Shown in pieces: positions 1,054-36,532 of a DNA stretch of 64,000 bases. The translations under genes were made by a program, and so were the position numbers. Within the stretch, counting starts at the first letter, position 1. Each line of letters opens with the position of its first letter. The notes beneath the pieces were generated by a model, which searched no databases, had not been told where the DNA came from, and was given only the letters and a program-made list of their open reading frames with translations. This DNA comes from Halioglobus sp. (lineage in GTDB: Bacteria > Pseudomonadota > Gammaproteobacteria > Pseudomonadales > Halieaceae), in assembly GCA_029246385.1 (NCBI GenBank), contig JAQWNG010000015.1:1-64000 (forward strand), written 5' to 3'.

Positions 1054-1764
1054 TTATCTCAGCGGAGCCTGGCAAGGTAAACGCCAGTCAACAGGTGCAA
1101 TTCCCCTGCCCCGCAGATAGTCATTGGTCATAGAAAAATGCCCGCAGCCAAAAAAACCGCGATAGGCACTTAGCGGTGAAGGGTGCGGCGCCTGCAGCAC
1201 ACAGTGGCGCGCGCGGTCGATGAGTGATCCCTTGCGCTGGGCGTAGCTGCCCCAGAGCAGGAACACGACCCCTTGTCTATCGCGATTAATGACCTCAATA
1301 ACACGATCTGTAAAGGTTTCCCAACCTCGGCCCTGATGTGATGCCGGCCGTCCAGATTGGACCGATAAGACGCTATTGAGCAATAGCACCCCCTGCTGCG
1401 CCCAGGTCGTGAGATCTCCGTGAGAGGGTATTGGCAGGTCAAACTGCGCGTGTAATTCCTTAAAAATATTTTTTAACGAGGGCGGTACGCCTACGCCGGG
1501 TTTGACCGAAAAGCAGAGCCCATGCGCTTGGCCTTCTCCGTGATAGGGATCCTGACCCAAAATGACAACTTTTACTGTCTCCAAAGGGGCATAATGAAAG
1601 GCACTAAATTGCTCATCAATGCTAGGAAAGATAGTCTTACCAGCCTTCTCCTCCGACAGCAAAAAAGCCTGCAATTGCTGCATGTACGGTTGCTGAAATT
1701 CTGCAGCGAGCGGCTTTAACCAACTCGGCTCTAACTCAATTCTCCTGTTGGTCTGTGTGGTCAT
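1054..1764 (-). CDS. ung: Uracil-DNA glycosylase (family 1)
   Basis: Removes uracil from DNA to start base-excision repair in the cytoplasm. The 236-residue length is normal for the family. The water-activating loop GQDPYH is at residues 70-75 (catalytic Asp72). The DNA-intercalation loop [17 protein letters not shown] is near residues 190-207, and LLLNSVLSV is also present. The gene begins 11 bases after the stop of fbiC on the same strand, so it is probably the last gene of the F420 operon or is read through from it. I see no functional link between uracil repair and F420; the pairing may only reflect shared transcription. Ends at a stop in the 5' part of the 639-1053 gap's border. Confidence 0.95.
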
Positions 1765-1775
1765 TTCGTGCGGCG

Positions 1776-4322
1776 TCAGTTGCAGGCCGCCATCAACACC
1801 ACACTTTCATACACGGTGCGATCGTGTGACTCATGAATCCACTTCACTTCCAGCGTGTCGGGTGCGTCAAGCGGTTTTTCTATTACTGATAAACGCTTGC
1901 TGCGCTGTTTCTTTGCCGCGGAAGCACCGAAAACGTCGGACAGCGGCGCCGCATTAAGGGCTGCATCGCGACGCTCTTGGGCAGCATCACCATAAAGGGT
2001 CGTGCGCATTCGCGGCTGACGTCCGGCCGCATGAATCTGCGCTTCGATCTGCTCGGGCACCCACTCCTGCCCATGGCCAGAACCTGCTGCGCGGGTGATA
2101 CTTTCGTTCATCAAAGAACCACCGAGGTCATTGACGCCTGCTTTCAAACAGGCAGCAACACCCTCTTTGCCCATCTTGACCCAAGAGGCCTGAATATTCG
2201 CTATCAGCCCGTTAAACACCAACCTTGCCACCGCGTGCATCAGAATTGCTTCGCGAAAGCTTGGCCCACGTCGTGCCTTGCCCTTCAGATACATCGGCGC
2301 TTCCATGTGCACGAACGGCAGAGGTACAAACTCGGTAAAGCCGCCGGTACGTTGTTGCAAAGCTCTGATGTGTAATAGATGGGCCGCCCAGTGTCGTGGG
2401 CGATCGATGTGTCCATACATAATCGTGGCCGTAGTGCGCAGGCCTGCATCATGGGATGCCGCCATAACCTCCAACCACTGCTCAGTGTTGAGCTTATCGG
2501 GACACAGATTTGCGCGAACCTCGTCGTGTAAAATTTCCGCCGCGGTGCCCGGCAGCGTATTCAGCCCTGCCTGCCGCAACTGTCGTAAGAAGGCCGGGAC
2601 AGTAACGCCAAGTGTCGCTGCGCCCTGCCACACCTCTAACGGGGAAAATGCATGAATATGCATGCCCGGCGTTGCACTGCGAACAGTATTCACGATATCC
2701 AGATATGTCTGGCCGGTATAGTCGGGGTGGATGCCGCCCTGCATACACACTTCGGTCGCACCGCGACTCCACGCCTCACTGCAACGCTGAGCAATATCCT
2801 CACCGGTAATATCGTAAGGCCTACCACGCAGATTTTCGCTTTGCTTGCCCTTCGAAAAAGCGCAGAATTGGCATTTAAAATAGCAAACATTGGTGTAATT
2901 GATGTTCCGGTTAACGACATAGCTGACCGCATCGCCATTGACGTGTTGACGCAGTTGATCCGCCTGCTCGACGACATAAGAAAAATCTGCCCCGCGGACA
3001 TCGAATAGTCGGGTAACGTCGACCTCCGTTAGCGCGCCAGTCTTTTCGCAGCGAGCGACAATGTCTAGCACGTCGAGGGATACCGCATCGGATTTCACAT
3101 CAGCTGCCAACAATTTTACTTCAATCGCAGGCACAACATGCTCTTCGCCCGGCACCCAACTGTCACGTCGCGCAAACCCCGCAGCGTCTGACAAACGCAG
3201 CACCGAGGTCTGAACGTTGTGATCCAGCCAGCGCTCACCGTCGACGACATAAGCCGGATAAACCGTAAGCCTCTGTTCAAGGAATTTTCCTGCGGCGTCG
3301 GTCTCCTTAGCCAATCGCTCCAAATGCGGCCAAGGGGCCTCTGGGTTCACATAGTCGGGCGTTATTGGCGAGACACCACCCCAATCATTAATCCCTGCCG
3401 CAACCAATTGCGGCAGCACGCCCGGACTGAGGTTGGGCGGTGCCTGAATATTCATTTGCGCGCCGAAAATCAGGCGTGAAACCGCAATAGTCCACAGTAA
3501 TTCGTTGAGGTCCGGCTCTGGGGCTGCGGACATCAGAGTCCCTGCCTTCGCGCGGAAATTTTGAATAATGACTTCCTGCAAATGACCATGTCGCTCATTG
3601 ACCTGACGTAACGCCAGCAATGACTCGATGCGCTCGCGACGCGTTTCACCAATACCAATGAGTATGCCAGAGGTGAATGGTACTGCCGCCTGCCCCGCTA
3701 ATTCTAAAGTCTGTAATCGCCGAGCAGGCTCTTTATCCGGAGAGCCATAATGGGGCATACCTTTTTCGCATAATCGCTGCGATGCAGACTCCAGCATAAT
3801 GCCCATCGACGCACTCACCCGCCGTAGTCCTGCAATTTCATCTGCGTTCATACAGCCAGCATTAATGTGAGGCAGCAATCCGGTCTCCGCTAAAACTCTA
3901 CGAGCCGTCTCCTTGACATAATCAAGCGTACTAGAAAAACCCATTTCTTCTAGGGCTCGCCTAGCAGCGCTATAACGCAGCTCCGGTTTTTCACCCAGCG
4001 TAAACAAGGCTTCCTGACAGCCCATGCTCGCTCCCTGATGGCACAGTTCAAGGACATCTTCGACCCGCATGTAAGGCTGTGCAATCTTTTTGGGGGTGCG
4101 CGCAAACGTGCAGTAGTGACAGACGTCTCTGCACAAATGCGTTAATGGAATAAATACCTTACGTGAATAAGTGATCACATTTTGATGCCCCTGATCCCTT
4201 AGGACTGAGGCCATACGGACCAACGCTGCGGTGTCATCAAAATCGGCTAACGACAGTGACTGCTCATCACTAAGCATTTCGCCCTGCAGCAGTTGCTCTT
4301 GCAAAAATAGCCAATCTAGCAT
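1776..4322 (-). CDS. fbiC: FO synthase, fused CofG-CofH (FbiC type)
   Basis: Makes the deazaflavin chromophore FO (7,8-didemethyl-8-hydroxy-5-deazariboflavin) from tyrosine and the flavin precursor 5-amino-6-ribitylaminouracil by two radical-SAM reactions. At 848 residues it is nearly the length of mycobacterial FbiC. The N-terminal CofG half (about 40-370) carries the CX3CX2C iron-sulfur motif at Cys64, Cys68 and Cys71 (CRDVCHYC). The C-terminal CofH half (about 440-800) has a second motif at Cys480, Cys484 and Cys487 (CYFKCQFC). Both are intact, so both half-reactions are expected. The start codon overlaps the cofC stop (TGATG), which implies translational coupling. The fused form is typical of bacteria; archaea usually have separate cofG and cofH. 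Confidence 0.96.
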
Positions 4323-5071
4323 CAGCGTGCAATTCCTCGGTTTACGTTGTCAAACAAATCTGGGCTACTTGATGCTGTGCCATCCACCATCGATGTCAAC
4401 GCTCGGGTCACGCGCGCACCAAGCTCAGTATTATAAAGCAACTGTGCGGTGTTACTGCTCGCCCCGCTCAAATGCAGCTGTTCCATAATACGCCTTAAAT
4501 CTACCGCCTCATCTACATCCAAACCTATCCCTGACCTTTGCATTACGCGCACAGGAATACCCGAGCTTTTTACGCTAGCAACATGCTGTGAGCAACTATC
4601 GACGCCAAAACAAAAAGCCGGCGTGCTGGCGGCATTAAATGCCAGCAGATTAGTACCCTCGCCTTTTGTGTCACAACCCACTATTAGCCCGTTCAGCTTC
4701 TGTTGGCTCTCCAATACCGCACTGATGTCTTCACTGCTCAGCAAAGGCAGGTCGCCATGCAATACGATAAGCGGCGCTTCTCCAGTCGCCAGCAAACGTT
4801 CGCTGGCACACTGTATCAGGGGATTCAGACCACGACACCCCAGGGATTTCTCTGTCCAACAATCAGCCCCATGCTTTTGCGCCAAACTAGTCGCTCCCGG
4901 GTCATCGGACAGCAGCGTGATTCGAACAATATCTTTATGGCAACTTAAAACAGCGAGCACATCCTCAACCATAGCCTGAGCCAGTAAACCACGTTCGCCA
5001 CGGGTCAATACGCCAGACAGGCGTGACTTAGCCAGCACCAGATCTTTTAGTGGAACCAATGCCTGCGCCAC
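4322..5071 (-). CDS. cofC: Phospholactate/phosphoenolpyruvate guanylyltransferase (CofC/FbiD)
   Basis: Activates a three-carbon phospho-acid with GTP to give the nucleotidyl donor used by CofD. The family uses 2-phospho-L-lactate in archaea, phosphoenolpyruvate in mycobacteria and 3-phosphoglycerate in at least one betaproteobacterium; which applies here cannot be told by eye. The protein (249 residues) opens with LVPLKDLVLAKSRLSG, the nucleotide-binding start of CofC/MobA-like folds, and has VLHGDLPLL (about residues 95-103) for metal and nucleotide binding. It sits between cofD (5-base gap) and fbiC (1-base TGATG overlap), so its role follows from both sequence and context. Confidence 0.9.
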   Translation of the reverse strand: MAQALVPLKDLVLAKSRLSGVLTRGERGLLAQAMVEDVLAVLSCHKDIVRITLLSDDPGATSLAQKHGADCWTEKSLGCRGLNPLIQCASERLLATGEAPLIVLHGDLPLLSSEDISAVLESQQKLNGLIVGCDTKGEGTNLLAFNAASTPAFCFGVDSCSQHVASVKSSGIPVRVMQRSGIGLDVDEAVDLRRIMEQLHLSGASSNTAQLLYNTELGARVTRALTSMVDGTASSSPDLFDNVNRGIAR

Positions 5072-5076
5072 GCGAC

Positions 5077-6036
5077 CTACTCCACTAAGTCCAGAATAAA
5101 CCGTGCCAAGCGTTTTTTGTCGTCCCGGCTTGTCATTACAGTAGGGGCAATAGCCACGTTTACTCCCAGCTTAGCAATCTCGTCTACTAGTTTAGCGTCA
5201 GTTTCATCGATTACAAAATAATCCAACAAATCTGGATAAAGATCACAGTAATGCTGCGCCACTCCCAATGCCGTAACGGGCATCCCAAGTTCAACCATCA
5301 TTTTTGCAGCGGGCCCTTTGATCGCCATACCTGACACAATGGGAGAAACCAGTACCAAGGGCGCGGCACAATCGCGCAAGGCTGTCCACATTCTTGGGAT
5401 CTGCAATATAGGATCAATACTCACAAACGGGTTAGACGGGCACACGACAATAGCAGATAACGCCTCGCTAGCGAGCAGCATCATCACTTCGGGGTTGGGA
5501 CTAGCCTGATCAATCCCGTCAAAGCTAAAGCCTGTCACTGCCGGCTTACACTGCTCGCGAACAAAATAGTGCTGAAATGCCAGGTCACGGCCTTCGCTGT
5601 GAACGGTTGTACTGACCAATTCCTCACACATAGGATGAATATGGCTGACAATGCCTAACTGCGCTGCAAGCTTGCCCGTGACATCCAAAAGACTCACGCC
5701 ATCCGCAAGCTGTGCCGTTCGCCATAAATGGGTCGCTAAATCGTTATCTCCGAGGCGAAACCAGGTCTCCCCCTGCAACTGTTCGAGCGCCGCCATTACC
5801 GTCCAGGTCTCATCCGCCAAGCCCCAACCGAGAGATTCGTTAGATTTGCCTGAAAGCGTATATAGGAGAGTGTCGATATCGGGGCTAATGTGAAGGCCCA
5901 GATGTTTGAAGTCGTCGCCCGTGTTAGCCAGCACATGCAACTGCCCTGCCGCCACCGAGTCTGCCAAGCCCAACGCCAACTTAGCGCCGCCGACCCCTCC
6001 AGACAGCGCAAGGACAGATTTTTGCATCACAGCCAT
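5077..6036 (-). CDS. cofD: 2-phospho-L-lactate transferase (CofD/FbiA)
   Basis: Transfers the activated phospho-acid from the CofC product onto FO, giving F420-0 or dehydro-F420-0. The 319-residue protein begins with LALSGGVGGAKLALGLA, the Gly-rich nucleotide-binding loop of this family, followed by NTGDDFKHLGLHISPDIDTLLY, which includes the conserved D-D and SPDIDT elements. HIHPMCEE and VVCPSNPFVSIDPIL are further CofD-type segments. The start ATG overlaps the cofE stop as TGATG. A second Met at codon 4 is a possible alternative start. Complete and without visible defects. Confidence 0.95.
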   Translation of the reverse strand: MAVMQKSVLALSGGVGGAKLALGLADSVAAGQLHVLANTGDDFKHLGLHISPDIDTLLYTLSGKSNESLGWGLADETWTVMAALEQLQGETWFRLGDNDLATHLWRTAQLADGVSLLDVTGKLAAQLGIVSHIHPMCEELVSTTVHSEGRDLAFQHYFVREQCKPAVTGFSFDGIDQASPNPEVMMLLASEALSAIVVCPSNPFVSIDPILQIPRMWTALRDCAAPLVLVSPIVSGMAIKGPAAKMMVELGMPVTALGVAQHYCDLYPDLLDYFVIDETDAKLVDEIAKLGVNVAIAPTVMTSRDDKKRLARFILDLVE

Positions 6037-6803
6037 CAGCGAAACATATCGAGTGATTTATCGCGCAGCAAGCCTGCTGAACCACCATCTGAGTGTGCAA
6101 GGCTTGCACCGCGGGCGACCACCACTGGGCAACCCTCAGCGGCCTGCCCCATAACCAGAGAAGCACCCGCTGCCAATTCATCTGCTACCGCGGGCTCTGT
6201 CACCTCGAGGGTATTACCAAACAGATCGGCTTCACCTATTTGGTTGTAAAGTGGCGCAACACCTGCAGTACCAATGGCCAAACCCACCGTGCCATTGCGC
6301 CAAGCCCTTCCCATACTGTCATTAATAATCACCTGCGGAGCAACAGCACCGAGGTTCGCAATGCCATTGCGCAGCGATCGCGCTGATGCGTCAGGATCTT
6401 CCGGCAGCAGTAGCACGCGAGGATCCTCTGCATCGATGCAAATATTGGATTTGTCGATGCCCGCATTGGCATGAATATATCCGTTGCGATGCTCAACAAT
6501 AATCACGCCCGGGCGAACGCGAATGACTTCATTGCTCTCGCGTAAAATAAGCTCTACCTGACGAGGATCTTTACCCGCTTTTTCGGCGAGAGCTTGTGCC
6601 TCAGGACTGGCCGTAACATCCGCCAGTCGTACGTAACGATTTTCTGCTTTGGAGATAATTTTTTGAGCTACCACAAGGACATCGCCCGACTGCAAGCTAA
6701 GGCCATTTGCTTGCAGGGCGTCCATGATCAGCGCTACAAGATCATCGCCCGGTTCCACCAACGGAAAATGCAACAGAGGAATCAATCTCAGACCGGCTGT
6801 CAT
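6036..6803 (-). CDS. cofE: Coenzyme F420-0:L-glutamate ligase (CofE), stand-alone
   Basis: Adds L-glutamate to F420-0 in a GTP-dependent reaction, building the gamma-linked tail. The 255 residues cover only the CofE domain. They include SGDVLVVAQKIISKAENR (about 38-55), IHANAGIDKSN (about 110-120) and INDSMGRAWRNGTVGLAIG (about 160-178), which bind GTP and metal. In mycobacterial FbiB this domain is fused to a C-terminal FMN nitroreductase-like domain that reduces dehydro-F420; that domain is absent here. The gene abuts npdG with no gap (TAG then ATG) and overlaps cofD by one base. Part of the F420 operon. Confidence 0.95.
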   Translation of the reverse strand: MTAGLRLIPLLHFPLVEPGDDLVALIMDALQANGLSLQSGDVLVVAQKIISKAENRYVRLADVTASPEAQALAEKAGKDPRQVELILRESNEVIRVRPGVIIVEHRNGYIHANAGIDKSNICIDAEDPRVLLLPEDPDASARSLRNGIANLGAVAPQVIINDSMGRAWRNGTVGLAIGTAGVAPLYNQIGEADLFGNTLEVTEPAVADELAAGASLVMGQAAEGCPVVVARGASLAHSDGGSAGLLRDKSLDMFR

Positions 6804-7490
6804 CTAGTGTGTGTCGTCCAGCCCACTAATTTTTATGCCAGCATGGCATCCATACTGTTTATTAATGGTAATTAACACCGATGTAAGCGCTTCGGCTGCA
6901 GCAGCATTATTGATCATACCCGCGTGAAAACCCCGCATACCGGCTGCTTCAATCAAGGTTATCACCGCTTGCCGAGCTACTTTCTTATTGCCCGTCACCA
7001 ACACGTCGCACTCTAACCCACGACCCTCCTGTAGATGCGCAGCAGCCACGTTTTGGAAAGCCGACACCACATAAACATCTTCGCCGAGCAATTCCTGTGC
7101 AATCTGACCCGCGCTGCCCTGCGGTGGCAGTTGCACTCGAGCTACTTTGGGAGGCACCAGAGGCACCGTGACATCAATGAGTATCTTTTCCTTCAAAGCC
7201 TCTTTAACCAGTTCAAGCGTACTCGCCTGATGACTGAAAGGAACGGTGAGGGTAACAATATCAGCGGCCTCTGCCGCAGCCAAATTCTCCATTGCACGAA
7301 CACTGATCTCAGCGACACCTCGTTCCGCCATTACTTCCCGTAAATCTGCGACGGCAGCCTCGGCCTTGTCCTGGGTGCGCGAACCAATGATGACGTCATA
7401 GCCAGCCTGCGCCCAGCGCCGGGCCAATCCTGTTCCCAAATCTCCAGTGCCGCCGAGGATGGCAAGCACTGGCAAGCTTTCTGTTGTCAT
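6804..7490 (-). CDS. npdG: NADPH:F420 oxidoreductase (NpdG/Fno)
   Basis: Passes hydride between NADP(H) and coenzyme F420, linking the F420 pool to cell metabolism. The 228-residue protein has the dinucleotide motif ILGGTGDLGTGLARRWA (about 11-27) ending in IIGSR, whose Arg is expected to hold the NADP 2'-phosphate. VTLTVPFSHQ, VTVPLVPP and VVSAFQNVAA match the F420-binding fold of Fno. It is the first gene of the minus-strand operon. The start ATG at 7490 has an AGGA about 9 bases upstream. It is the only enzyme in the window expected to use F420 itself. Confidence 0.92.
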   Translation of the reverse strand: MTTESLPVLAILGGTGDLGTGLARRWAQAGYDVIIGSRTQDKAEAAVADLREVMAERGVAEISVRAMENLAAAEAADIVTLTVPFSHQASTLELVKEALKEKILIDVTVPLVPPKVARVQLPPQGSAGQIAQELLGEDVYVVSAFQNVAAAHLQEGRGLECDVLVTGNKKVARQAVITLIEAAGMRGFHAGMINNAAAAEALTSVLITINKQYGCHAGIKISGLDDTH

Positions 7491-7540
7491 ATCACTTATT
7501 CCTAATCGAGTAGAGTTGAGGTAATACAGCCAATTTTACG

Positions 7541-7555
7541 CAGCTGTGACAGCTG
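7541..7555. promoter_or_regulatory. 15-bp perfect dyad between the F420 operon and the divergent SDR gene
   Basis: CAGCTGT-G-ACAGCTG is a perfect 7-bp inverted repeat around a single centre base. It lies 50 bases upstream of the npdG start and about 140 bases upstream of the SDR start, in the only intergenic space of this divergent pair. On the minus strand a TAAAAT (possible -10) follows it. The position suggests an operator for the F420 operon, the SDR, or both. The LuxR-type protein at 8503-9675 is one possible binder, but nothing in the sequence proves it. Confidence 0.4.
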
Positions 7556-7697
7556 GCGCCTCTGTACCAACACAAAATTTCCTGCCAGTGCATTTTGGGT
7601 TAGGATACAGACGGCCCGAGCATATTATGTAAATCATAGCCTGATCTCAAGCACAGAAATGTCTCGTGCTTATTTCAACTATATGGAGACACTTACC

Positions 7698-8474
7698 ATG
7701 GACAAAATACTGGATTTAGATGGAATGGCTGTCATTGTCACTGGTGGCGGCAAAGGTGTCGGCCGCGGCATCACCGAGTGTTTTTTAAAAGCCGGTGCCA
7801 ATGTCGTCATTTGCGGCAGAACGGAGCCTGAATCCCTTCCCGCACACAACGGTCGCACAGCGCTGTTCACCGCCTGCGACGTCCGCGACTATGAGCAGAT
7901 TGAGAGCTGCGTCGACCTTGCATTACAGCAGTTTGGCCGTGTCGATGTGTTGGTTAACAATGCTGGGGGGGCGCCCTATGCCGAGGCTGCAACGGCGTCT
8001 CCGCGCTTTTCAGAATCTATTATTCGGCTCAATCTGATTGCGCCATTGAACTTTAGTCAAGTGGCGAACCGCGTAATGCAACAACAGGAAGCAGGAGGCT
8101 GCATCATCAATATTGCCAGTGTAAGCACCATTAGACCTTCACCAGGCACCGCAGCCTACGGGGCGGCCAAGGCCGGCTTGGTCAATCTCGGAGCTTCTTT
8201 GGCCATCGAGTGGGCGCCAAAAGTGCGAGTCAATGCGCTGGTTGTGGGGCTCACAAAGACCGAACAAGCACACCTGCACTATGGTGATGAGGATGGCATA
8301 GCCGCTGTTGGCGCGACCATACCGCTGGAGCGTATGGCCGTGCCAGAGGATGTGGGTAACGCCTGCCTTTTCCTAGCATCTCCGCTTGCATCCTATGTCA
8401 GCGGCACTAACTTTGCCGTTCACGGTGGCGGCGAAAAACCTGCCTTTCTGGAGGCCGCTAATGCCAGTTCATAA
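7698..8474 (+). CDS. SDR-family oxidoreductase
   Basis: A classical short-chain dehydrogenase/reductase of 258 residues that should use NAD(P)(H) on an alcohol or ketone. It has VTGGGKGVGRG (14-24), VNNAGG (86-91), the catalytic Ser141 in NIASVS, and Tyr154/Lys158 in AAYGAAK. I chose the ATG at 7698 because GGAG lies 8 bases before it; in-frame ATGs at 7659 and 7683 have no such site. It is transcribed away from the F420 operon and followed after 28 bases by a LuxR-type regulator. SDRs are not known F420 enzymes, so a link to the cofactor is only positional. Substrate unknown. Confidence 0.88.
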   Translation: MDKILDLDGMAVIVTGGGKGVGRGITECFLKAGANVVICGRTEPESLPAHNGRTALFTACDVRDYEQIESCVDLALQQFGRVDVLVNNAGGAPYAEAATASPRFSESIIRLNLIAPLNFSQVANRVMQQQEAGGCIINIASVSTIRPSPGTAAYGAAKAGLVNLGASLAIEWAPKVRVNALVVGLTKTEQAHLHYGDEDGIAAVGATIPLERMAVPEDVGNACLFLASPLASYVSGTNFAVHGGGEKPAFLEAANASS

Positions 8475-10374: not shown

Positions 10375-10607
10375 TGACAAAACTCCAAATCAAAAAGGTG
10401 CTTAAACCCACCTCTTAGCACCACAGGGCCTTATAAAAAAAGCGTCACCGCTGTCGATAATATCAAGATAAAGCCGACATCAGCACGATCAACAGGACGT
10501 CTCCTGCCATACCGATGATCGCAGCCAAACAAGAGGTAACAAAGACTGTTGGCACCAGCAACGCTTCGCTCAATAGGCCCTCCGATTTAAATGATAAAAA
10601 GATAAAT

Positions 10608-10636
10608 TTTACCTGCTCCCTCGGCAAGTCTACACT
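10608..10636 (+). promoter_or_regulatory. Candidate sigma70 promoter of the first P450
   Basis: TTTACC (10608-10613), a 17-base spacer, then TACACT (10631-10636). Transcription would start near 10643, giving a leader of about 30 bases before the ATG at 10674. Other than this promoter, the 299 bases between the lipoprotein and P450 starts hold nothing I can identify. Confidence 0.4.
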
Positions 10637-10673
10637 GAACAGAATGTTCTTGAATAAAAAGGCTGCCTCTAGA

Positions 10674-11906
10674 ATGACTCTTACAGACCGACCTGATGAT
10701 GGCGATAACGGTGCAGTTCCTGGATGGTACGGGGTGGACCCCAACAAGACAGATCTGAAGCCAAACCCCCATGCACACTACAAACATCTGCGACAGGTGC
10801 AGCCGGTTAATCTTACTCCAGTCGGAGACTGGCGCTTGTCAAATTATGTTGATATTCAGAAGCTTTTTAAGCACAGCCACAGTGGCATGCGCGACATGGA
10901 GGGACTGATTCCAGGGGAAACACGCGAACAGACCAATGCGTCCAAATTTATGCTGCGAATGGACCCACCGGATCACGGTCGCTTGCGCAGCTTGGTCAGC
11001 AAAGCCTTTACACCAAAAAGCCTGAACACTCTGCGGCCGATGGTTGAAACAGTAGTTGCGGCCGAACTCGATAGCGTTTCCCCACGGGGCACCATGGACC
11101 TGGTATCAGATCTGGCACTGACGGTCCCTGCCGCGTCCATGTGCGCGATGCTCGGCGTCCCGTTCGAAGATCGCCACAAGCTCACGGACTTAGTTTCTCT
11201 AGTCACCTACCGGCTTGCCAAACAGGCGTATCCCCATCTGCAAGAACAGTCCGAAGCTGCAATTATCGAACTTGCCCAATACATGCTCGTACTCATCGAA
11301 GAACGGCGAACTACCCCTACTAATGACATCTTAGGACAATTGGTAATGGCCGAAGAAGCCGGCGATCGGCTGAGTAACGACGAGCTATTGCAGCAAAGTA
11401 TTGGCCTGCTTGTTGCTGGATTGGAGACCACGATCGGTCTGATTGCTAACGGTATGGTGTGTTTTTCCCGCTACCCTGAAGAATTTGAAAAATTGGCGGC
11501 CGACCCGACACTGGCGCTGTCGGCCGTCGAAGAATGCTTGCGTTTTGAGCCGTCAGTTCCTATCACACTCAGAATATTGTGGGAGGATACGGAGTTTGGC
11601 GGCGTCACAATACCTGCCAACGCCAATGTCTATGCACTTTTAATCGGTGCCAATCGAGATCCACTGCATTTTACCGAACCAGACCGCTTTGATATTCATC
11701 GCAGCGAGGCCAAGCACTGTTCTTTTGGGGGCGGCATACACTTCTGTCTGGGATCACATCTCGCACGCATGAACGCCGAAATCGCGTTCCAGCAGATGGC
11801 CCGACGCTTTACCGCTATCGAGATTGATGAATCGAGCATTCAGTGGGCACCCTCGCTGTTTCGGATACCCGGAAGTATTGCCGCACGCTTTCAGCGTCGC
11901 CGCTAG
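10674..11906 (+). CDS. Cytochrome P450 (family unassigned)
   Basis: A soluble bacterial class I P450 monooxygenase of 410 residues from the chosen start. The oxygen-binding I-helix motif is LLVAGLETT, the ExxR is in EECLRFEP, and the heme loop is FGGGIHFCLG with thiolate Cys358. In-frame starts exist at 10515 and 10644. The first 43 residues from 10515 look non-coding and would overlap the likely promoter, so 10674 (AAGG upstream) or 10644 is preferred. DPPDHGRLRSLVSKAFTP is a normal C-helix region. No ferredoxin or reductase gene is adjacent, so it must borrow electron partners. Substrate unknown; the sequence is not clearly CYP153- or CYP125-like, unlike the other two P450s here. Confidence 0.93.
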   Translation: MTLTDRPDDGDNGAVPGWYGVDPNKTDLKPNPHAHYKHLRQVQPVNLTPVGDWRLSNYVDIQKLFKHSHSGMRDMEGLIPGETREQTNASKFMLRMDPPDHGRLRSLVSKAFTPKSLNTLRPMVETVVAAELDSVSPRGTMDLVSDLALTVPAASMCAMLGVPFEDRHKLTDLVSLVTYRLAKQAYPHLQEQSEAAIIELAQYMLVLIEERRTTPTNDILGQLVMAEEAGDRLSNDELLQQSIGLLVAGLETTIGLIANGMVCFSRYPEEFEKLAADPTLALSAVEECLRFEPSVPITLRILWEDTEFGGVTIPANANVYALLIGANRDPLHFTEPDRFDIHRSEAKHCSFGGGIHFCLGSHLARMNAEIAFQQMARRFTAIEIDESSIQWAPSLFRIPGSIAARFQRRR

Positions 11907-12992: not shown

Positions 12993-14024
12993 TTAAACAG
13001 CATCTCTTGCCTTCGCCATATCTAGCGCGAGATCTTCAATCATATCTTCCTGACCACCGACTGTTCTACGCCGTCCTAGTTCAACCAAAATATCGCGACT
13101 GGACAATCCATATTTCTCGGCGCTGCGCTTGGCAAACAGCAGGAAGGACGAATATACACCTGCATAGCCAAGCGTAAGCGCATCGCGATCAACACGCACC
13201 ATCTGATCCATCATTGGCACAACAAGGTCTTCCGCAATATCCATCGCTTTAAACAAATCAATGCCTGTTTCGGCACCCATCCGATCACACACAGCAATAA
13301 AGACTTCCAGCGGCGTGTTACCTGCACCTGCCCCCAGCCCCGCCAGAGAACCATCGATTCGATTAGCGCCTGCGTCAACAGCAGCCAGAGAGTTAGCGAC
13401 CCCCATCGCCATGTTGTGGTGCCCATGAAAGCCGAGTTCAGTTTCGGGCCTTAGCTTCGCTCGCGCCAGTGCAACTCGCTCGGTCACATGACCGGGCAGC
13501 ATATAGCCTGCTGAGTCAGTGATGTAAACGCAGTTGGCTCCAAAGTCCTCCATCATTTTTAATTGTTGCACCAGTTCTTCAGGGCCTACCATATGCGCCA
13601 TCATAAGAAACCCGACGGTATCAAGGTCAGGGTATTTAGCCGCCATTGCTAAATGCTGCTCAGCAACATCTGCTTCAGTGCAGTGCGTCGCCACTCGAAT
13701 ACAAGCGATGCCGCAATCCACAGCCATTTTTAGATGATCAACGGTACCGATGCCCGGCAACAGCAAAGCAGACACCTTTGTGTGATTCACCTCTTTACAG
13801 ACAGCGGTCAAGTACGCTTCATCACTGGCCGCAGGAAAGCCGTAATTCACCGAAGCGCCACCCAGCCCATCGCCATGCGTAACTTCAATCAGCGGTATTC
13901 CTGCCTCGTCCATGGCTTTGGCAATCGTCACCATTTGCTCGACGGTAATCTGATGCTGCTTGGGATGCATGCCATCACGCAGACACATATCATGAATGAT
14001 AATTTTCTTTCCCATTAGATCCAT
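12993..14024 (-). CDS. mhpE: 4-hydroxy-2-oxovalerate aldolase (class II, MhpE/DmpG type)
   Basis: Cleaves 4-hydroxy-2-oxoacids to pyruvate and an aldehyde (acetaldehyde or propanal). [16 protein letters not shown] near the start holds the metal-binding Asp and Arg. [13 protein letters not shown] and [15 protein letters not shown] carry the HxH metal ligands, and [18 protein letters not shown] closes the barrel. I chose the ATG at 14024 (343 residues, family-normal), which has GAGAG 7 bases upstream; an upstream in-frame ATG at 14105 would overlap the aldehyde dehydrogenase gene. In this family the aldolase channels its aldehyde to the acylating dehydrogenase encoded 34 bases upstream. Confidence 0.96.
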
Positions 14025-14058
14025 TATCTTGCTCTCTCGTGTTTGCTGTCGACGGAAT

Positions 14059-14967
14059 TCAGGCCATAGCAGGTACAAACGTGCCCGCCAAAATCTCTTG
14101 TGCATACATCTCCGCAGTGCGCAAACCGGCTGCGGTCATGATGTCCAAATTACCGGCATATTTGGGCAAAAAATCGCCCAATCCCTCTACTTCCATATAA
14201 ATTGACACGCGGTTGCCATCGAACACTGGCCCGTTCTTCAATGTATAACCGGGGACGTATTTTTGCACCTCGGCAAGCATTTCGTGCACGGACTTCATAA
14301 TTGCCGCCTGATCAGGCTCGTCCACCGTTAGGCAATGAATGGTGTCGCGCATAATCAGCGGAGGCTCTGCAGGATTGATCACAATAATAGCTTTGCCACT
14401 TTTTGCACCACCCACTTTTTCAATGCCGCTTGCGGTGGTACGCGTGAACTCGTCGATATTTTTGCGCGTACCGGGGCCTGCTGATTTACTGCTCACCGTC
14501 GCAACGATTTCGCCATACGCGACGCTCTGGATACGACTAACAGCCGCCACCATCGGGATAGTGGCCTGGCCCCCGCAGGTTACCATGTTGACGTTCATTG
14601 CTTTGGCCGCAACAGCTTCGCTCAAATTGACCGGAGGCACACAAAACGGCCCAATCGCTGCTGGCGTCAGATCAATCATAACCGCGCCTTGAGCGTTGAC
14701 CTTGCGACTATTTTCAGCGTGGACGTAGGCAGATGTCGCGTCGAAGCAGACCTGTACGCCATCCTCCACCATGGTGGGCACCATCCCGTCTACGCCCTCC
14801 GCCGTCGTTTTGAGGCCCATGTCTAGAGCTCTCGCCAGACCGGGTGAATCCACATCCACACCCACCATCCATACAGGTTCAATCAGCTCACTGCGCATGG
14901 CCTTCATCAGCAGATCTGTACCGATATTGCCGGGACCAATTATTGCTGCCTTTACTTTGTTACTCAT
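14059..14967 (-). CDS. mhpF: Acetaldehyde dehydrogenase, acylating (MhpF/DmpF type)
   Basis: Oxidises acetaldehyde or propanal with NAD+ and CoA to acetyl-CoA or propionyl-CoA. The 302-residue protein starts [17 protein letters not shown], the NAD-binding loop, and has [13 protein letters not shown] with the catalytic Cys (about residue 130) and [14 protein letters not shown]. It lies directly upstream of its partner aldolase; the two form a channelling complex in known systems. Size and motifs are all normal. Confidence 0.96.
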
Positions 14968-15060
14968 GTTGTATCTCTGTGTTTTGTCAGGTTCTAGTAT
15001 GTGCCCCGACGATTACACCAGCGCACTGCTTTGACATACCATCTCATCAAGACAGCACCG

Positions 15061-15852
15061 CTATATAAATTTGCAGCTACAACCTCCCAACCCGTCAATC
15101 ACCAGTGACATCTCGTCTCCGGCAACCACTGGAATCAAAGGTACCAGCGAGCCAGAAAGTATTATTTCGCTTGCTTTAAAGGGTATGCCAAATTCGCCCA
15201 AGGTATTCGCCAGCCACGCCACTGCAGTCAGTGGGTTACCCTGCACGGCACTGCCCAAACCCTGCGCTATGACTTCGCTATTTTTTAACACCGTCATCTT
15301 TAAATTCGGCAAATCAAAATCGTGTGGATCAACTTCATTCTTACCCAGCACATACACACCACAGGATGCGTTATCAGCGACCGTGTCTTGAATCTTTATA
15401 TTCCAATTATGAATTCTGGAATCGACAATCTCAAAACACGGCATAATACTCTGTGTCGCATCCAGCACATCACGCTCTGTCACTCCCGGACCCACTAAAT
15501 CTTGTTTCAAACGGAACGCAATTTCGCCCTCGGCCCTAGGCTGAATCATATTGCCTGCGATGGGGATATTGGCGCCATCAGCGTATTCCATCTTATCAGT
15601 CAAGAAACCAAAGTCAGGCTGAAATACGTTTAACATGTCCTGCACAGGCTTACTGGTCACACCGATTTTCTTGCCTACAATACGCTCGCCATCGAGGTTT
15701 AGGCGCTGATCCACCATCCGCAAAGAGATATGGTAAGCATCCTCAATGGTGATATCACCTTCCCGCGCGGTCAGCGGCTCTATTGTGGACTGAGCCCGGA
15801 GAGCTTGATAAAGCTCATCTCCCAGTTGATTTATCCGATCTTTGTGCATCAT
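15061..15852 (-). CDS. mhpD: 2-oxopent-4-enoate hydratase (MhpD/DmpE family)
   Basis: Adds water to 2-hydroxypenta-2,4-dienoate to give 4-hydroxy-2-oxovalerate, the step before the aldolase. IVGKKIGVTSKPVQDML and RAEGEIAFRLKQDLVG hold the family's active-site and metal-binding acidic residues, and ILSGSLVPL is the usual near-C-terminal element. Two adjacent ATGs (15852 and 15849) follow GGCGAGG; either gives about 263 residues, as expected, while the open frame reaching 15972 adds about 40 residues with no family resemblance. A close relative, 4-oxalocrotonate decarboxylase, shares the fold, but no decarboxylase partner gene is present, favouring the hydratase. Confidence 0.92.
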   Translation of the reverse strand: MMHKDRINQLGDELYQALRAQSTIEPLTAREGDITIEDAYHISLRMVDQRLNLDGERIVGKKIGVTSKPVQDMLNVFQPDFGFLTDKMEYADGANIPIAGNMIQPRAEGEIAFRLKQDLVGPGVTERDVLDATQSIMPCFEIVDSRIHNWNIKIQDTVADNASCGVYVLGKNEVDPHDFDLPNLKMTVLKNSEVIAQGLGSAVQGNPLTAVAWLANTLGEFGIPFKASEIILSGSLVPLIPVVAGDEMSLVIDGLGGCSCKFI

Positions 15853-16051
15853 AGCCTCGCCTACCTTTTGTAAGGCGGTGATTTTACACGCCTTCGGAGA
15901 TTTACCAGTACAATAGTTTATTCGACCAGCATTAAACTCTTGGCGCTGACAATGGATGTTTTTTCTCAGCAAAACACTGCTATCGGATTCGGGGCGACAT
16001 GACGCTTACTGCATTTGCCAGGTAACGCAAGCGTATTGATCCAACGCGCAG

Positions 16052-16885
16052 TTAGCCATGCTGAAGAAAGTCTAAACAGTAACGATTAAACATCGCTTCA
16101 TGCTCAACCATCACCCAATGACCGCATTCCGTCGCCAGAATCAGGCGTAAGTGCTTAATGTTCTTGGCCATGGCCATAATGCCATTTTCAGGCATCATCT
16201 TCTCATCCATACCCCAAAAGCCCAGCACGGGGCAGTCAATCTCGTGCAAGCGTTCTACTAAGTTAGGTACCTGCATGCTCGCCATCACATGGCCATTCAT
16301 GATACCCATGATCTGCATACGTTCTTCAACCAACTCGTCAGTAGCATGAGTCGAGTCGTGCATCAGCCCTGTGGCGAATAGATCCTTCATTACCGCCGGT
16401 GTCACAGGCTCACCAGATCCGAAAACGTTGAATACTTTCTGCATACCCGGCATTTGCTGGTATTCCGGCAACTCGCTTAAGCCGCCCGGAGCCATCAGAA
16501 CGAGCTTCTCCACCAGCTGCGGATACTCTAATGCCAATCCCAACGCGACCGCTCCGCCTAACGAATTGCCCACCAGCGTACATTTTTTTACTTCCGCCAC
16601 ATCAAGCGTCTGCTTGATACACTCTACAAAAAACGACAAGGGGTGATCAACGTCACTGGGCTTGTCTGAAAAGCCATAGCCAATATGATCTGGAATAATG
16701 CAACGATAACCGGCACCCACCAGATCTCGGTAATTACCCTTGAAGTTGCTATAGCCACTTGCGCCAGGACCTGACCCATGCAAAAAAACGACGACTTCGC
16801 CGTGTCCCTCGTCTAAATAATGAATACGATAGCCATTCGCACAGGTAGCATAGTGGGCCTCGGGTAAGCGTCCTTTTAACTTCAT
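16052..16885 (-). CDS. Alpha/beta hydrolase, meta-cleavage product hydrolase type (BphD/DmpD/HsaD-like)
   Basis: Probably hydrolyses the C-C bond of a ring-cleavage product to a carboxylic acid and 2-hydroxypenta-2,4-dienoate, which the next enzyme hydrates. The 277-residue protein has the oxyanion loop HGSGPGASG (36-44), nucleophile Ser108 in GNSLGG, Asp227 in WGMDE and His256 in CGHWVMVEH. The GSGPGASG signature and the gene order hydrolase-hydratase-dehydrogenase-aldolase support this role over a general esterase. No extradiol dioxygenase is adjacent, so the aromatic substrate (monocyclic, biphenyl-like or steroid ring) cannot be named. Confidence 0.85.
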   Translation of the reverse strand: MKLKGRLPEAHYATCANGYRIHYLDEGHGEVVVFLHGSGPGASGYSNFKGNYRDLVGAGYRCIIPDHIGYGFSDKPSDVDHPLSFFVECIKQTLDVAEVKKCTLVGNSLGGAVALGLALEYPQLVEKLVLMAPGGLSELPEYQQMPGMQKVFNVFGSGEPVTPAVMKDLFATGLMHDSTHATDELVEERMQIMGIMNGHVMASMQVPNLVERLHEIDCPVLGFWGMDEKMMPENGIMAMAKNIKHLRLILATECGHWVMVEHEAMFNRYCLDFLQHG

Positions 16886-18193: not shown

Positions 18194-19837
18194 ATGAAAA
18201 TGATCAAAACACAATTAGCATTCGTTGCAGGTGTTACCGCAATGAGTCTGTCCATCGAGTCTTTTTCACACGGGTATGTTTCACAACCAGAAAGTCGCTC
18301 TTATCTATGCAAGTTAGGCGAGAATACTGGTTGTGGCGCCGTTCAATATGAACCTCAATCTGTGGAAGGCATGGACGGCAGCCCACGCTTCCCAGTGGGC
18401 GGCCCGGCTGATGGCACCATTGCTGCAGCGGGGAGTCCCGCTTGGTCAGAGCTGAACGCGCAAACTCCCGCTCGCTGGTCGAAGAATGACATTTCTGCTG
18501 GAACTAACGTTTTTACTTGGACGTTTACTGCCAACCATACCGCTCGCGATTGGCGATACTTCATTACCAATCCCGACTGGGATCAATCACAACCCTTGTC
18601 GCGCTCCGCGTTTGAACTAAGCCCCTTTTGCGAATATGACGGCGGCATGATGCGCCCACCAATGACCGTGCAACATTCGTGTGAAGTCCCAGCTCGCGAA
18701 GGTTATCAGATCATCTTAGCGGTATGGGATGTCGGCGATACGGCAGCATCCTTCTACAACGCGATTGACGTGAACTTCGACGGCGGCGACATGGCGGTAA
18801 TCGAAGACAACGCCTTTCTAGAAGTGGGCACCATCTCGGGTGCAGTTGCACTTAGCCCAGGGGACACTGTCTATACACGCGTAATGGATGAAAATGGTGA
18901 GAATGCCGCACTGTCTGTGACCTACACAGCAACCGTTGCCACCACCGGCGCAGCTGCAAGCCTGGAACTCGCGCGAGCCATCAACGCACAAGGATATTTC
19001 TTCGCAGGTGAAAAATCAGGTGACACGTTTACCCCAATCGCTGGCGCGAACAAAATTTATGCCATGGGAAATGACGACATTCAATCCATTCAAGTCGCCA
19101 TTGAATTTGCAAACGCAGAAGCGGAATACCAGGTCACTCTGTCGAACGTAGATTCCCCTGTAGACATAAACAGCTTGGGAATGGCTGATGTCAACTTTAC
19201 GGTATCGACGAATGGCGCAATGGACATTGTCGCCACACTGTTCGATGCTAGCGGTGCGACAGTCACCAGCGATACCTTTAGCCTAGATGACACCATGCCA
19301 ATTCCTGATAACGTCGGTTCCTGTGATTCACCTGAGCCAGGCCTTCCCATGCAACCTACTGATCTAAAGCTGCACGTGCACGAAGCCTTTGCGGGTGACT
19401 ATACGCTGGTTATTGTTGCTACAGCCATTCAAGGTAATGCGACCATTCAAAATACCGCGAACGTAACCTTGGTAGGTTCAGGTGCAGAAACCCCTGCAAT
19501 CGACGACGCAGGTTCTTGCGGTATCTCTGACCCCATGGCTTCTATGCAGCCGGCCTTTAACTTATCCACTGTCTACACCGGCGGAGAAGTGGTCAGTTAC
19601 AGCGGCCTGATCTATAAAGCAAAATGGTGGACTGTTGATGTTGCTCCTGACGCGACGAATGCATTCGAACTAGTGTCTGATATTCGTCTAGACTATTCTG
19701 ACTCCACCATTTTTCTTGAAGGTGCAGAGGCGATATTCGAAAGTGACGTTTACCGCGCCAACTGGTGGACACTTGGATACTCGCCAATGGAAGACCCTGA
19801 TGCATGGTCGTTGATTGGCCCTGCTCCGTCATGTTAA
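18194..19837 (+). CDS. Secreted AA10 lytic polysaccharide monooxygenase, GbpA-like
   Basis: A copper-dependent oxidative enzyme that should cut chitin or cellulose. After a signal peptide (1-25) the mature protein begins with His26 in HGYVSQPESR. With His115 in TANHTARDWR it forms the copper histidine brace. The catalytic domain spans about 26-205. The next segment, from LEVGTISGAVALSPGDTVYTRV, resembles the second domain of the Vibrio colonisation factor GbpA. The C-terminus has two short Trp-rich modules (YKAKWWTVD near 490 and YRANWWTLG near 525) like CBM5/CBM73 chitin-binding domains. It is a single-gene unit with a terminator right after it. Regulation not visible. Confidence 0.92.
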   Translation: MKMIKTQLAFVAGVTAMSLSIESFSHGYVSQPESRSYLCKLGENTGCGAVQYEPQSVEGMDGSPRFPVGGPADGTIAAAGSPAWSELNAQTPARWSKNDISAGTNVFTWTFTANHTARDWRYFITNPDWDQSQPLSRSAFELSPFCEYDGGMMRPPMTVQHSCEVPAREGYQIILAVWDVGDTAASFYNAIDVNFDGGDMAVIEDNAFLEVGTISGAVALSPGDTVYTRVMDENGENAALSVTYTATVATTGAAASLELARAINAQGYFFAGEKSGDTFTPIAGANKIYAMGNDDIQSIQVAIEFANAEAEYQVTLSNVDSPVDINSLGMADVNFTVSTNGAMDIVATLFDASGATVTSDTFSLDDTMPIPDNVGSCDSPEPGLPMQPTDLKLHVHEAFAGDYTLVIVATAIQGNATIQNTANVTLVGSGAETPAIDDAGSCGISDPMASMQPAFNLSTVYTGGEVVSYSGLIYKAKWWTVDVAPDATNAFELVSDIRLDYSDSTIFLEGAEAIFESDVYRANWWTLGYSPMEDPDAWSLIGPAPSC

Positions 19838-34843: not shown

Positions 34844-36532
34844 ATGAAACAACTAGGAATACTAGACTCCGCGTTCGTCAATTTGGAGCAAACTAATACC
34901 CCTCAACATGTCGGCGGCTTGGGGATTTATGACCCATCAACGGCCCCCGGGGGGTTTGTTCGCTTTAAAGACGTCATTGCAAGCTTTGAGCGCCGCCTCG
35001 GGGGTCTGCCTTTGTTCCGAACACGATTGGTAGAAGTTCCCGGCGGCATGGACAGGCCCTATTGGATAAAAGACGCCAACTTTGACGTTGAGTTTCATCT
35101 GCGACATATTGCCCTACCTCAGCCTGGCGACTGGCGGCAGTTGTGCATCCAGACTGCCCGCCTCCACTCACGCCCGCTAGATATGTCTCGGCCCCTGTGG
35201 GAGGCCTATATTATCGAAGGCCTAGACAATATTCCCAACCTCCCTAAGGGATGTTTCGCCGTTTACACTAAAATGCATCACTCCATGGTCGACGGTGCCG
35301 GCGGCACGTCTTTTATAACGGCCCTGCACGATCTGATGCCGAACCCTGAGAAACAACCCAGCTGGGAGACTGAGCCGCGACTCGTAGATACAGCGCCTTC
35401 CGTTGCAGAGCTGATGACCAAGGCGACCCTTAACAGCGCGAAAAACACCCTACAGCTGCTTACAGGCACCGCTAGAAACGCTAAAGATCTCACCCAATAT
35501 GCCATCGATGTTGCCCGCAAGGAAATCCCTCCGCCGGATATATCCGCACCGAAAACAATTCTAAACAAGCCCGTTGGCCCTCACCGCGTATTTGATGCAG
35601 CAGAATTTCCCCTTGAGGGCTTCAAAGACATCAAAACTGCCGTCGATGCGACAGTAAACGACGTGGCTCTTAGCGTCATTAGCGGTGCTCTGCAGCGCTA
35701 TCTGACGGCCAAAGGCGAGGCACCAAAAAAGGGATCTCTTGCAACGACCATGCCGCTGAACATGCGTACGAGGCGTGGAACCACTGATCAGAACAATCAG
35801 GTTGGTTCAATATTTGCTTCACTGCATACGGATATTGATGACCCCATCAAACGCATCGCAGCAATTCAGCGGTCAACTGAAGAAGCGAAGATCAGTGGCG
35901 AAGCAAGCCCTATGGTAGATGCCTTGATGCTAGCAGGCGTGCTAGCTCCCGCCCTTTCGAAATCTGTCGCTAGCTTCTGGTCGCGCAACCAGCTTTCCAA
36001 GCACTTGCCAGTAAACATCTCGACCTGTATTTCTAACGTACCAGGCCCCAACTTTCCACTGTACTGTGCGGGTGCCAAAATGGTTGATTACTATGGGCTT
36101 GGCGTGTTGACGCCCGGTATGGGAATCTTCCACCTCGTCTTCAGCTATTCCGGCAAGCTGACGCTATCCGTGTTGGCGGACAGGGATATAATGCCTGACC
36201 CTGAGTTCTATCATGATTGCCTGGTGGCTGCCTATGAGGAGCTCTATGCGGCTGCGGCCAAACTTGAGCCAGGACGGCGTAAAACTGCGGCAGTTGCTGC
36301 AAAAGCCAAAATCCGGTCGCCCAAGCGAGCGCAAGGGCCTATTAGGCCAATAGGTGCCGTAGCTCCTAAGCTGCATTCTAAAACGCGCCTCTCGGAGAAT
36401 GCGACGGTAAAGCGGACAACGAGGCCCAAAAATCCAGTTAAAGTGGCGGCAAAAACTCGCAGCGCTGCGAAACCCAAAAAAACGACGAGCGCTGCGCTGA
36501 AAAAACGGACATCCACCAAATTAAAACCCTAG
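34844..36532 (+). CDS. WS/DGAT-family wax ester synthase/acyltransferase with basic C-terminal tail
   Basis: Transfers an acyl group from acyl-CoA to a long-chain alcohol (wax ester) or diacylglycerol (triacylglycerol), building storage lipid at the membrane. The acyltransferase motif HHSMVDG is at 145-151 (His146, Asp150). ANFDVEFHLRHIALP and MPLNMRTRRG, then VNISTCISNVPGP, are further family segments. The enzyme proper ends near residue 475. It is followed by an 85-residue tail (478-562) with 27 Lys/Arg and a single acidic residue, rich in Ala, Pro and Thr. That tail resembles histone-H1-like or PhaF-like tails and is not part of the standard family. GAGAAATT precedes the ATG. Confidence 0.92.
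   Translation: MKQLGILDSAFVNLEQTNTPQHVGGLGIYDPSTAPGGFVRFKDVIASFERRLGGLPLFRTRLVEVPGGMDRPYWIKDANFDVEFHLRHIALPQPGDWRQLCIQTARLHSRPLDMSRPLWEAYIIEGLDNIPNLPKGCFAVYTKMHHSMVDGAGGTSFITALHDLMPNPEKQPSWETEPRLVDTAPSVAELMTKATLNSAKNTLQLLTGTARNAKDLTQYAIDVARKEIPPPDISAPKTILNKPVGPHRVFDAAEFPLEGFKDIKTAVDATVNDVALSVISGALQRYLTAKGEAPKKGSLATTMPLNMRTRRGTTDQNNQVGSIFASLHTDIDDPIKRIAAIQRSTEEAKISGEASPMVDALMLAGVLAPALSKSVASFWSRNQLSKHLPVNISTCISNVPGPNFPLYCAGAKMVDYYGLGVLTPGMGIFHLVFSYSGKLTLSVLADRDIMPDPEFYHDCLVAAYEELYAAAAKLEPGRRKTAAVAAKAKIRSPKRAQGPIRPIGAVAPKLHSKTRLSENATVKRTTRPKNPVKVAAKTRSAAKPKKTTSAALKKRTSTKLKP

Follow-up and report, generated by a model that had tools for sequence, protein, structure and literature searches.

A predicted coenzyme F420 biosynthesis operon in a Halieaceae-type gammaproteobacterium and its distribution across the order Pseudomonadales

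The first 64,000 nucleotides of contig JAQWNG010000015.1 from Halioglobus sp. (assembly GCA_029246385.1; this whole stretch is hereafter the window) contain five open reading frames (ORFs) lying end to end on the minus strand from position 7490 to 1776 in the order npdG-cofE-cofD-cofC-fbiC, the gene set for biosynthesis of coenzyme F420 (Table 1). Adjacent genes abut without a gap (npdG/cofE), overlap by one base (cofE/cofD and cofC/fbiC), or are separated by five bases (cofD/cofC), in agreement with a preliminary description of this DNA that had reported one minus-strand five-gene unit with overlaps or gaps of 0-5 bases; the five genes would be transcribed as one unit. The contig is at least 260 kb long, and the assembly (3.32 Mb, 45 contigs) is 99.99% complete. 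Among 80 named loci kept for comparison, the closest FbiC proteins are 91% identical and come from metagenome-assembled genomes (MAGs) named Halioglobus and Haliea. Two members of the window's family, G241 and G221, agree in the contig number, coordinates, and score of their CofD places with the genomes of L030 (Seongchinamella unica) and L033 (HTCC2148), respectively. By its nearest named relatives the host appears to be a Halieaceae-type gammaproteobacterium.

All five predicted proteins exceeded the curated NCBIfam cut-offs of equivalog models, the Pfam matches were consistent with these assignments, and E-values from 6e-37 to 0 exclude chance for the five matches. The nearest solved relative of NpdG is the F420:NADP oxidoreductase 5n2i (E 1.2e-37), and the protein carries the Rossmann motif GGTGDLG. 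CofE is a stand-alone protein of 255 aa, without the nitroreductase domain of FbiB, that matches the solved structure 7uld over residues 6-253 (E 2e-45). Solved relatives of CofD are 3c3d (E 2.6e-53) and 6uvx (E 4.9e-43), and its motif GGVGGAK is present; those of CofC are 7p97 and 6bwg, with the motifs GDLP and DVD in place. FbiC contains two CxxxCxxC radical-SAM clusters, at residues 64 and 480, and its best solved match, the aminodeoxyfutalosine synthase 6xi9 (E 7e-43), spans the CofH half only. Intact motifs had been claimed for all five proteins; our motif check took in FbiC, CofD, NpdG, and CofC, where the claim held, with CofE outside the check. An FO synthase with both clusters, CofC, CofD, and CofE above their cut-offs, and a reductase, NpdG, that would feed the cofactor are all encoded together, and on this evidence the F420 biosynthesis operon of the window is genuine and complete. 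The earlier proposal that a gammaproteobacterium carries the full operon, and that F420 production is therefore a prediction open to testing, is supported. Among relatives, cofC and fbiC form a single open frame encoding a CofC-CofG-CofH protein at nine loci (L028, L030, L033, L042, L045, L071, L198, L199, and L203) of the 59 with cofC just upstream of fbiC, two of those 59 (L080 and L201) appearing to be one contig.

Table 1. Features of the operon, its flanks, and related loci, with positions in the window unless a locus is given
Feature	Position	Strand	Evidence
npdG (Fno), NADPH-dependent F420 reductase, first operon gene	6804..7490	-	TIGR01915, 195.3 bits (cut-off 149.8)
cofE, F420-0:L-glutamate ligase	6036..6803	-	TIGR01916, 265.7 bits (cut-off 180.65)
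cofD (FbiA), moves the activated phospho-acid to FO	5077..6036	-	TIGR01819, 267.0 bits (cut-off 257.45)
cofC (FbiD), phospho-acid-activating guanylyltransferase, GTG start	4322..5071	-	TIGR03552, 127.2 bits (cut-off 105)
fbiC, fused CofG-CofH radical-SAM FO synthase	1776..4322	-	NF006687, 1135.7 bits (cut-off 1018)
ung, uracil-DNA glycosylase	1054..1764	-	NF003589, 345.6 bits (cut-off 223); 11 bases downstream of fbiC
SDR-family oxidoreductase	7659..8474	+	NF005893, 391 bits (cut-off 255); divergent, 168 bases upstream of npdG
Intergenic region between npdG and the SDR gene, 168 bases	7491..7658	.	presumed promoter region, read directly
Meta-cleavage type four-gene set	12993-16885		family matches
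FO-only fbiC loci, examples	L067:9974-15106; L043:9962-14958; L190:499-5553		fbiC followed by the three-gene set

We consider it likely, with a probability of roughly 0.87, that these five genes form one transcription unit making F420, that the coenzyme is spent by the bacterium's own luciferase-like (LLM) and FDOR-A enzymes, and that the operon has been mostly vertically inherited. FbiC would convert tyrosine and a riboflavin intermediate into FO, CofC would use GTP to activate a phospho-acid, either phosphoenolpyruvate (PEP) or 2-phospholactate, CofD would transfer the activated acid to FO, CofE would attach glutamates, and NpdG would reduce the finished F420 with NADPH. With PEP as the acid, a dehydro-F420 reductase encoded elsewhere in the genome would be required. 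The resulting F420H2 would be consumed by luciferase-like and FDOR-A enzymes, perhaps in breaking down lipids, steroids, or other hydrophobic compounds.

The CofH model TIGR03551 was exceeded in 80 of 293 genomes of the order and in 10 of 12 from the window's family, and in 4 of 398 genomes drawn across the phylum, namely, the window's own genome, one more of its order, and two from outside the class. All ten family genomes also have a strong CofD match, that of G261 falling just under the cut-off. Across the order, CofD exceeded its cut-off in 84 of 293 genomes, and the CofD-positive set used below (n = 87) adds three genomes with E < 1e-30, eight weaker matches having been dropped. FbiC and CofD occurred together in 78 order genomes, FbiC alone in two, and CofD alone in nine, of which four (G088, G092, G140, and G207) contain FbiC-like matches below cut-off with E-values of 2e-13 or better. 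The F420 operon is rare in the phylum, common in this order, and ordinary in the family; the earlier statement that proteobacterial cases are scattered and few is accurate for the phylum and fails for the order and the family. FbiC proteins from MAG records titled Klebsiella pneumoniae (L054) and Verrucomicrobiaceae (L080) fall among the order's sequences, and these records are likely mislabelled; the L080 and L201 proteins have the same aligned columns, and L201 belongs to the window's order.

F420-dependent enzyme families are present in the window's own genome, which has 24 places matching the luciferase-like family PF00296, one of them a fragment, and four matching the FDOR-A family PF04075, which had no match in 14 control genomes. 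A scan of 20 of the 24 LLM places put 16 of the 20 ORFs above cut-offs of F420-dependent subfamilies: TIGR03619 (six), TIGR03559 (four), TIGR03617 and TIGR03857 (two each), TIGR03621 (one), and TIGR03841 (one, by 0.7 bits). In counts over the order's 293 genomes that ignore shared ancestry, FDOR-A was found in 63 of 87 CofD-positive and 3 of 206 CofD-negative genomes, and TIGR03559 was exceeded in 68 of 87 and 2 of 206, respectively. The exceptions, G200, G286, and the weakly matching G149, have assemblies in 220-480 contigs with a completeness of 78-97%. Because FDOR-A and TIGR03559 enzymes track CofD across the order, F420 is probably both made and used in this bacterium, and we regard this co-occurrence as the strongest evidence for F420 production and use.

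In a group of relatives, FbiC was found without CofD. At 31 of the 80 named loci, fbiC stands without cof genes in the sequenced flanks, and a search at E 0.001 found no CofD match in those 31 genomes and recovered CofD in three of three controls. The two order genomes with FbiC and no CofD (G081 and G137) bring the distinct FO-only loci to 32, as G137 is additional and G081 is the same as L074. Ten FO-only FbiC rows placed in a tree formed one group (support 85/87) inside the Halieaceae-type F420 rows, and monophyly of the Halieaceae F420 rows was rejected (p 0.017, for a group named after the tree was seen). Full-length FDOR-A is encoded in 1 of the 31 FO-only genomes versus three of three F420-positive controls; 14 others have partial PF04075 matches of 20-38 bits, mostly confined to profile positions 42-103 and frequently within frames ~200 residues long (G665, G670, G674-G677, G680, G684, and others), which perhaps belong to a distant split-barrel family able to bind FO.

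These relatives bear on the idea that the pathway in the window mainly supplies FO as a photolyase antenna, with the F420 steps secondary. Some organisms use FO as a photolyase chromophore (PMC8498797), and the DNA-repair gene ung lies directly downstream of the operon, but in Halieaceae-type loci fbiC occurs together with cofC, cofD, cofE, and npdG, FDOR-A and TIGR03559 follow CofD across the 293 genomes, and full-length FDOR-A all but disappears where FbiC occurs without CofD, which together make a primarily FO-supplying pathway highly improbable.

At 29 of the 32 FO-only loci, three genes come after fbiC on its strand and encode an NAD-binding protein, a conserved hydrophobic protein of ~335 residues that lacks a Pfam match, and a CDP-alcohol phosphatidyltransferase; the family assignments were made on one representative. 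Of the remaining loci, L034 and L064 run off contig ends and L061 lacks the set. FO is stated to leak through membranes (PMC8498797), and a lipid anchor on FO would make sense for that reason: FbiC might have become detached from the F420 pathway in FO-only bacteria, which might retain FO through a phospholipid attached at its ribityl alcohol, giving a membrane-anchored deazaflavin cofactor that replaces F420. We think this improbable and offer it as a lead only. A set specific to FO is a weaker proposition since the transferase and hydrophobic protein also occur together where fbiC is absent: all 10 stretches (~16 kb each) fetched from families f40 and f47 show this, seven of them with an NAD-binding neighbor. 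Among order genomes with the hydrophobic protein, 13 of 14 have FbiC or CofD, and they come from three families only.

For the role of F420, six stretches around LLM and FDOR-A genes were fetched and ten neighboring genes scanned. One TIGR03559-type gene (L229) adjoins genes for a nitronate monooxygenase, a short-chain dehydrogenase/reductase (SDR), two acyl-CoA dehydrogenases, and a hydrolase, and near another (L231) are an AMP-binding ligase, an acetyl-CoA hydrolase/transferase, and a weak, sub-cut-off thiolase-like match. Rv3520c, for which TIGR03559 is named, is situated in the mycobacterial cholesterol region. In the window itself, the meta-cleavage type set comprises a 4-hydroxy-2-oxovalerate aldolase and an acylating acetaldehyde dehydrogenase above their cut-offs, a hydratase just under its own, and an alpha/beta hydrolase similar to BphD and HsaD that scores far below both cut-offs. 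As a reasonable guess and nothing stronger, F420 may help to break down steroid-like or other hydrophobic compounds. P450-like genes are also present in the window at 10515-11906, 40477-41745, and 44032-45294.

The acid joined to FO may be read from one residue of CofC. In the sections of PMC8764529 that describe the Mycetohabitans enzyme, Ser162 marks use of 3-phosphoglycerate, and its counterpart is Gly163 of Mycobacterium tuberculosis FbiD. In an alignment with checked numbering, the window CofC has Gly at the FbiD G163 position rather than the Ser or Thr of 3-phosphoglycerate enzymes, and among 48 rows (the window and 47 relatives) this position holds Gly in 33, Asp in 14, Asn in one, and Ser or Thr in none; the Asp residues perhaps reflect alignment shifts. 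The pocket residue points to PEP or 2-phospholactate, not 3-phosphoglycerate; use of PEP would call for a separate dehydro-F420 reductase. A variant product such as 3PG-F420 would fit a genome in which no such reductase was assignable, as that route does without one, and 3PG-F420 is described from another proteobacterium (PMC8764529); given the absence of the diagnostic Ser or Thr from all 48 rows, we judge this variant quite improbable here.

Several observations weigh against an F420-making and F420-using bacterium as proposed. Its genome gave no FbiB C-terminal/FbiE-type match over cut-off, the best TIGR03553 score being 30.9 bits against 249.55, with a model that also yields weak sub-threshold matches in 12 of 14 control genomes. 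The earlier statement that all genes through reduction are present stands for NpdG, but the search with this model identified no dehydro-F420 reductase such as a PEP route would need. Four of the 20 scanned LLM ORFs pass no F420-LLM cut-off, and LLM enzymes are able to use FMN. None of the 20 scanned places, out of 24, exceeded the cut-off for F420-dependent glucose-6-phosphate dehydrogenase, and because no F420-reducing sugar-phosphate dehydrogenase passed, reduction would rest on NpdG, the only F420 reductase identified. FDOR-A is missing from 24 of the 87 CofD-positive genomes, the co-occurrence counts take no account of shared ancestry, and partial PF04075 matches in 12 of the 31 FO-only genomes (22-38 bits) reach the family's low cut-off of 22. 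The catabolic role draws on two of the six neighborhoods, and a third TIGR03559-type gene (L232) lies, by eye, in a chaperone/dapB housekeeping region. We found no F420 measurement for this group.

Descent was examined with a tree of FbiC, the one protein of the five for which a phylogeny was built (50 rows, joined CofG and CofH halves, 735 columns, LG+G4, root chosen on two actinobacterial rows). The window FbiC pairs with that of a Haliea MAG (100/100) inside the Halieaceae rows, and sequences from Halieaceae, Spongiibacteraceae, Porticoccaceae, Cellvibrionaceae, and further members of the order form one clade (100/99). This clade also contains the FbiC of a Paraburkholderia plasmid (L205) with the identical gene order npdG-cofE-cofD-cofC-fbiC; six further plasmid copies, from alpha- and betaproteobacteria, fall outside the clade, with actinobacterial copies more distant still. 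Distances between Ung proteins correlated with those of the CofG half (Mantel r 0.69), the CofH half (0.58), CofD (0.54), CofE (0.55), and NpdG (0.64) over the 22 rows holding all genes (999 permutations, all p 0.001). In three families of the order (L193, L194, and L195), cofG and cofH are unfused and of another type; L193 and L195 group with Leisingera and Paracoccus, as did L194 in an earlier tree, and this split type represents a separate, second entry of F420 synthesis into the order.

The preliminary description had held horizontal acquisition plausible unless trees showed the operon to be ordinary in its clade. For FbiC the tree shows exactly that, and as a recent gain by this strain the proposal is unsupported because FbiC lies within Halieaceae and the neighbors ung and the divergent SDR gene are widely kept. 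The rarity of F420 genes in the phylum (4 of 398 genomes over cut-off) would suit such a gain, and the betaproteobacterial plasmid within the order's clade indicates that operons of this gene order move, but 10 of 12 family genomes have CofH over cut-off plus strong CofD, FbiC groups with Halieaceae rather than away from the host family, and the operon's G+C content (0.50-0.55) is like that of the rest of the window (0.49-0.56). The sequences give no sign of recent transfer, which we consider very improbable. The operon likely entered long ago from outside the class, and we conclude that an old entry into the order was followed by largely vertical descent in the family, making the operon a stable trait, inherited for the most part vertically, in Halieaceae and related families of the order. 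A phage carrier was considered and set aside, as viral contigs gave three pattern matches, none of them a relative.

Beyond the operon, ung is downstream of fbiC on the same strand at 21 of the 80 loci L022-L101; it is ~590 bases from fbiC in L051, and none is near fbiC in L076, a record titled Halieaceae. It is perhaps co-transcribed with the operon, and we assign it no role in F420 metabolism. The divergent SDR gene lies within 900 bases of npdG at 25 of the 43 loci that have npdG and at least 1 kb of upstream sequence. One minus-strand sigma-70-like match (7650-7622) falls in the npdG/SDR intergenic region; promoter-like matches were no commoner between 900 and 8600 than in shuffles (5 versus a mean of 6.2), terminator matches (11 versus 8.4) were within one standard deviation of shuffles, and a tRNA search of the window found none. 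Elsewhere in the window are a GbpA-like protein with LPMO_10, GbpA_2, and CBM_5_12 domains (18194-19837), suggesting chitin use, and a wax ester synthase/diacylglycerol acyltransferase (34844-36532), suggesting storage lipid. A VWA-TPR protein (54740-56563) contains a Q/D-rich stretch encoded by an imperfect tandem repeat of 12/45/57 bases (56117-56314), and its frame is overlapped by a second long frame at 55971-58241.

Confirmed F420 producers named in the consulted portion of PMC8498797 are alpha- and betaproteobacteria, not gammaproteobacteria; the FDOR family is attributed there to Actinobacteria and Chloroflexi, and why Proteobacteria make F420 is counted among the unanswered questions. 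Among the best-ranked papers we found no title on F420 in Halieaceae, Gammaproteobacteria, Halioglobus, Zhongshania, or Pseudomonadales; two papers contain both F420 and Halioglobus, and an earlier mention in surveys (Ney et al. 2017) is possible. In an order with many members that are marine by their record names, more than a quarter of sampled genomes encode the pathway together with matching F420-enzyme families, and the purpose of proteobacterial F420 becomes testable in cultured strains such as Seongchinamella unica and Parahaliea mediterranea. Genomes with F420 genes, FO-only genomes, and genomes with neither provide a natural contrast set. What makes the locus interesting is this order-wide F420 economy with its FO-only branch, rather than any new mechanism encoded in the window.

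The closest known counterparts are the clusters of Paraburkholderia sp. PGU19, Aromatoleum aromaticum EbN1, Sinorhizobium meliloti, and Croceicoccus marinus, in which, as in the window, a fused FbiC is clustered with CofC, CofD, CofE, and NpdG (the S. meliloti cofE is unannotated and was located by tblastn). Gene order in PGU19 is identical, with overlapping junctions except for a 90-base gap after npdG. Those alpha- and betaproteobacterial clusters are plasmid-borne, whereas the window copy lies in a contig of at least 260 kb, beside ung, in a context common to its relatives. Traces of F420 are described from Oligotropha and Paracoccus, where its role is given as minor or niche (PMC8498797). 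The actinobacterial fbi genes of Mycobacterium and Rhodococcus share with the window the FbiC fusion and the LLM and FDOR-A users; unlike them, the window has a CofE without the FbiB fusion, npdG inside the operon, and a genome in which no F420-glucose-6-phosphate dehydrogenase passed its cut-off over the scanned LLM places. The 3PG-F420 cluster of Mycetohabitans likewise belongs to a Gram-negative host and has the CofC/CofD side-chain step, and it differs at the diagnostic position of CofC, which is Ser162 in the enzyme as described in PMC8764529 (in part) and Gly in that of the window.

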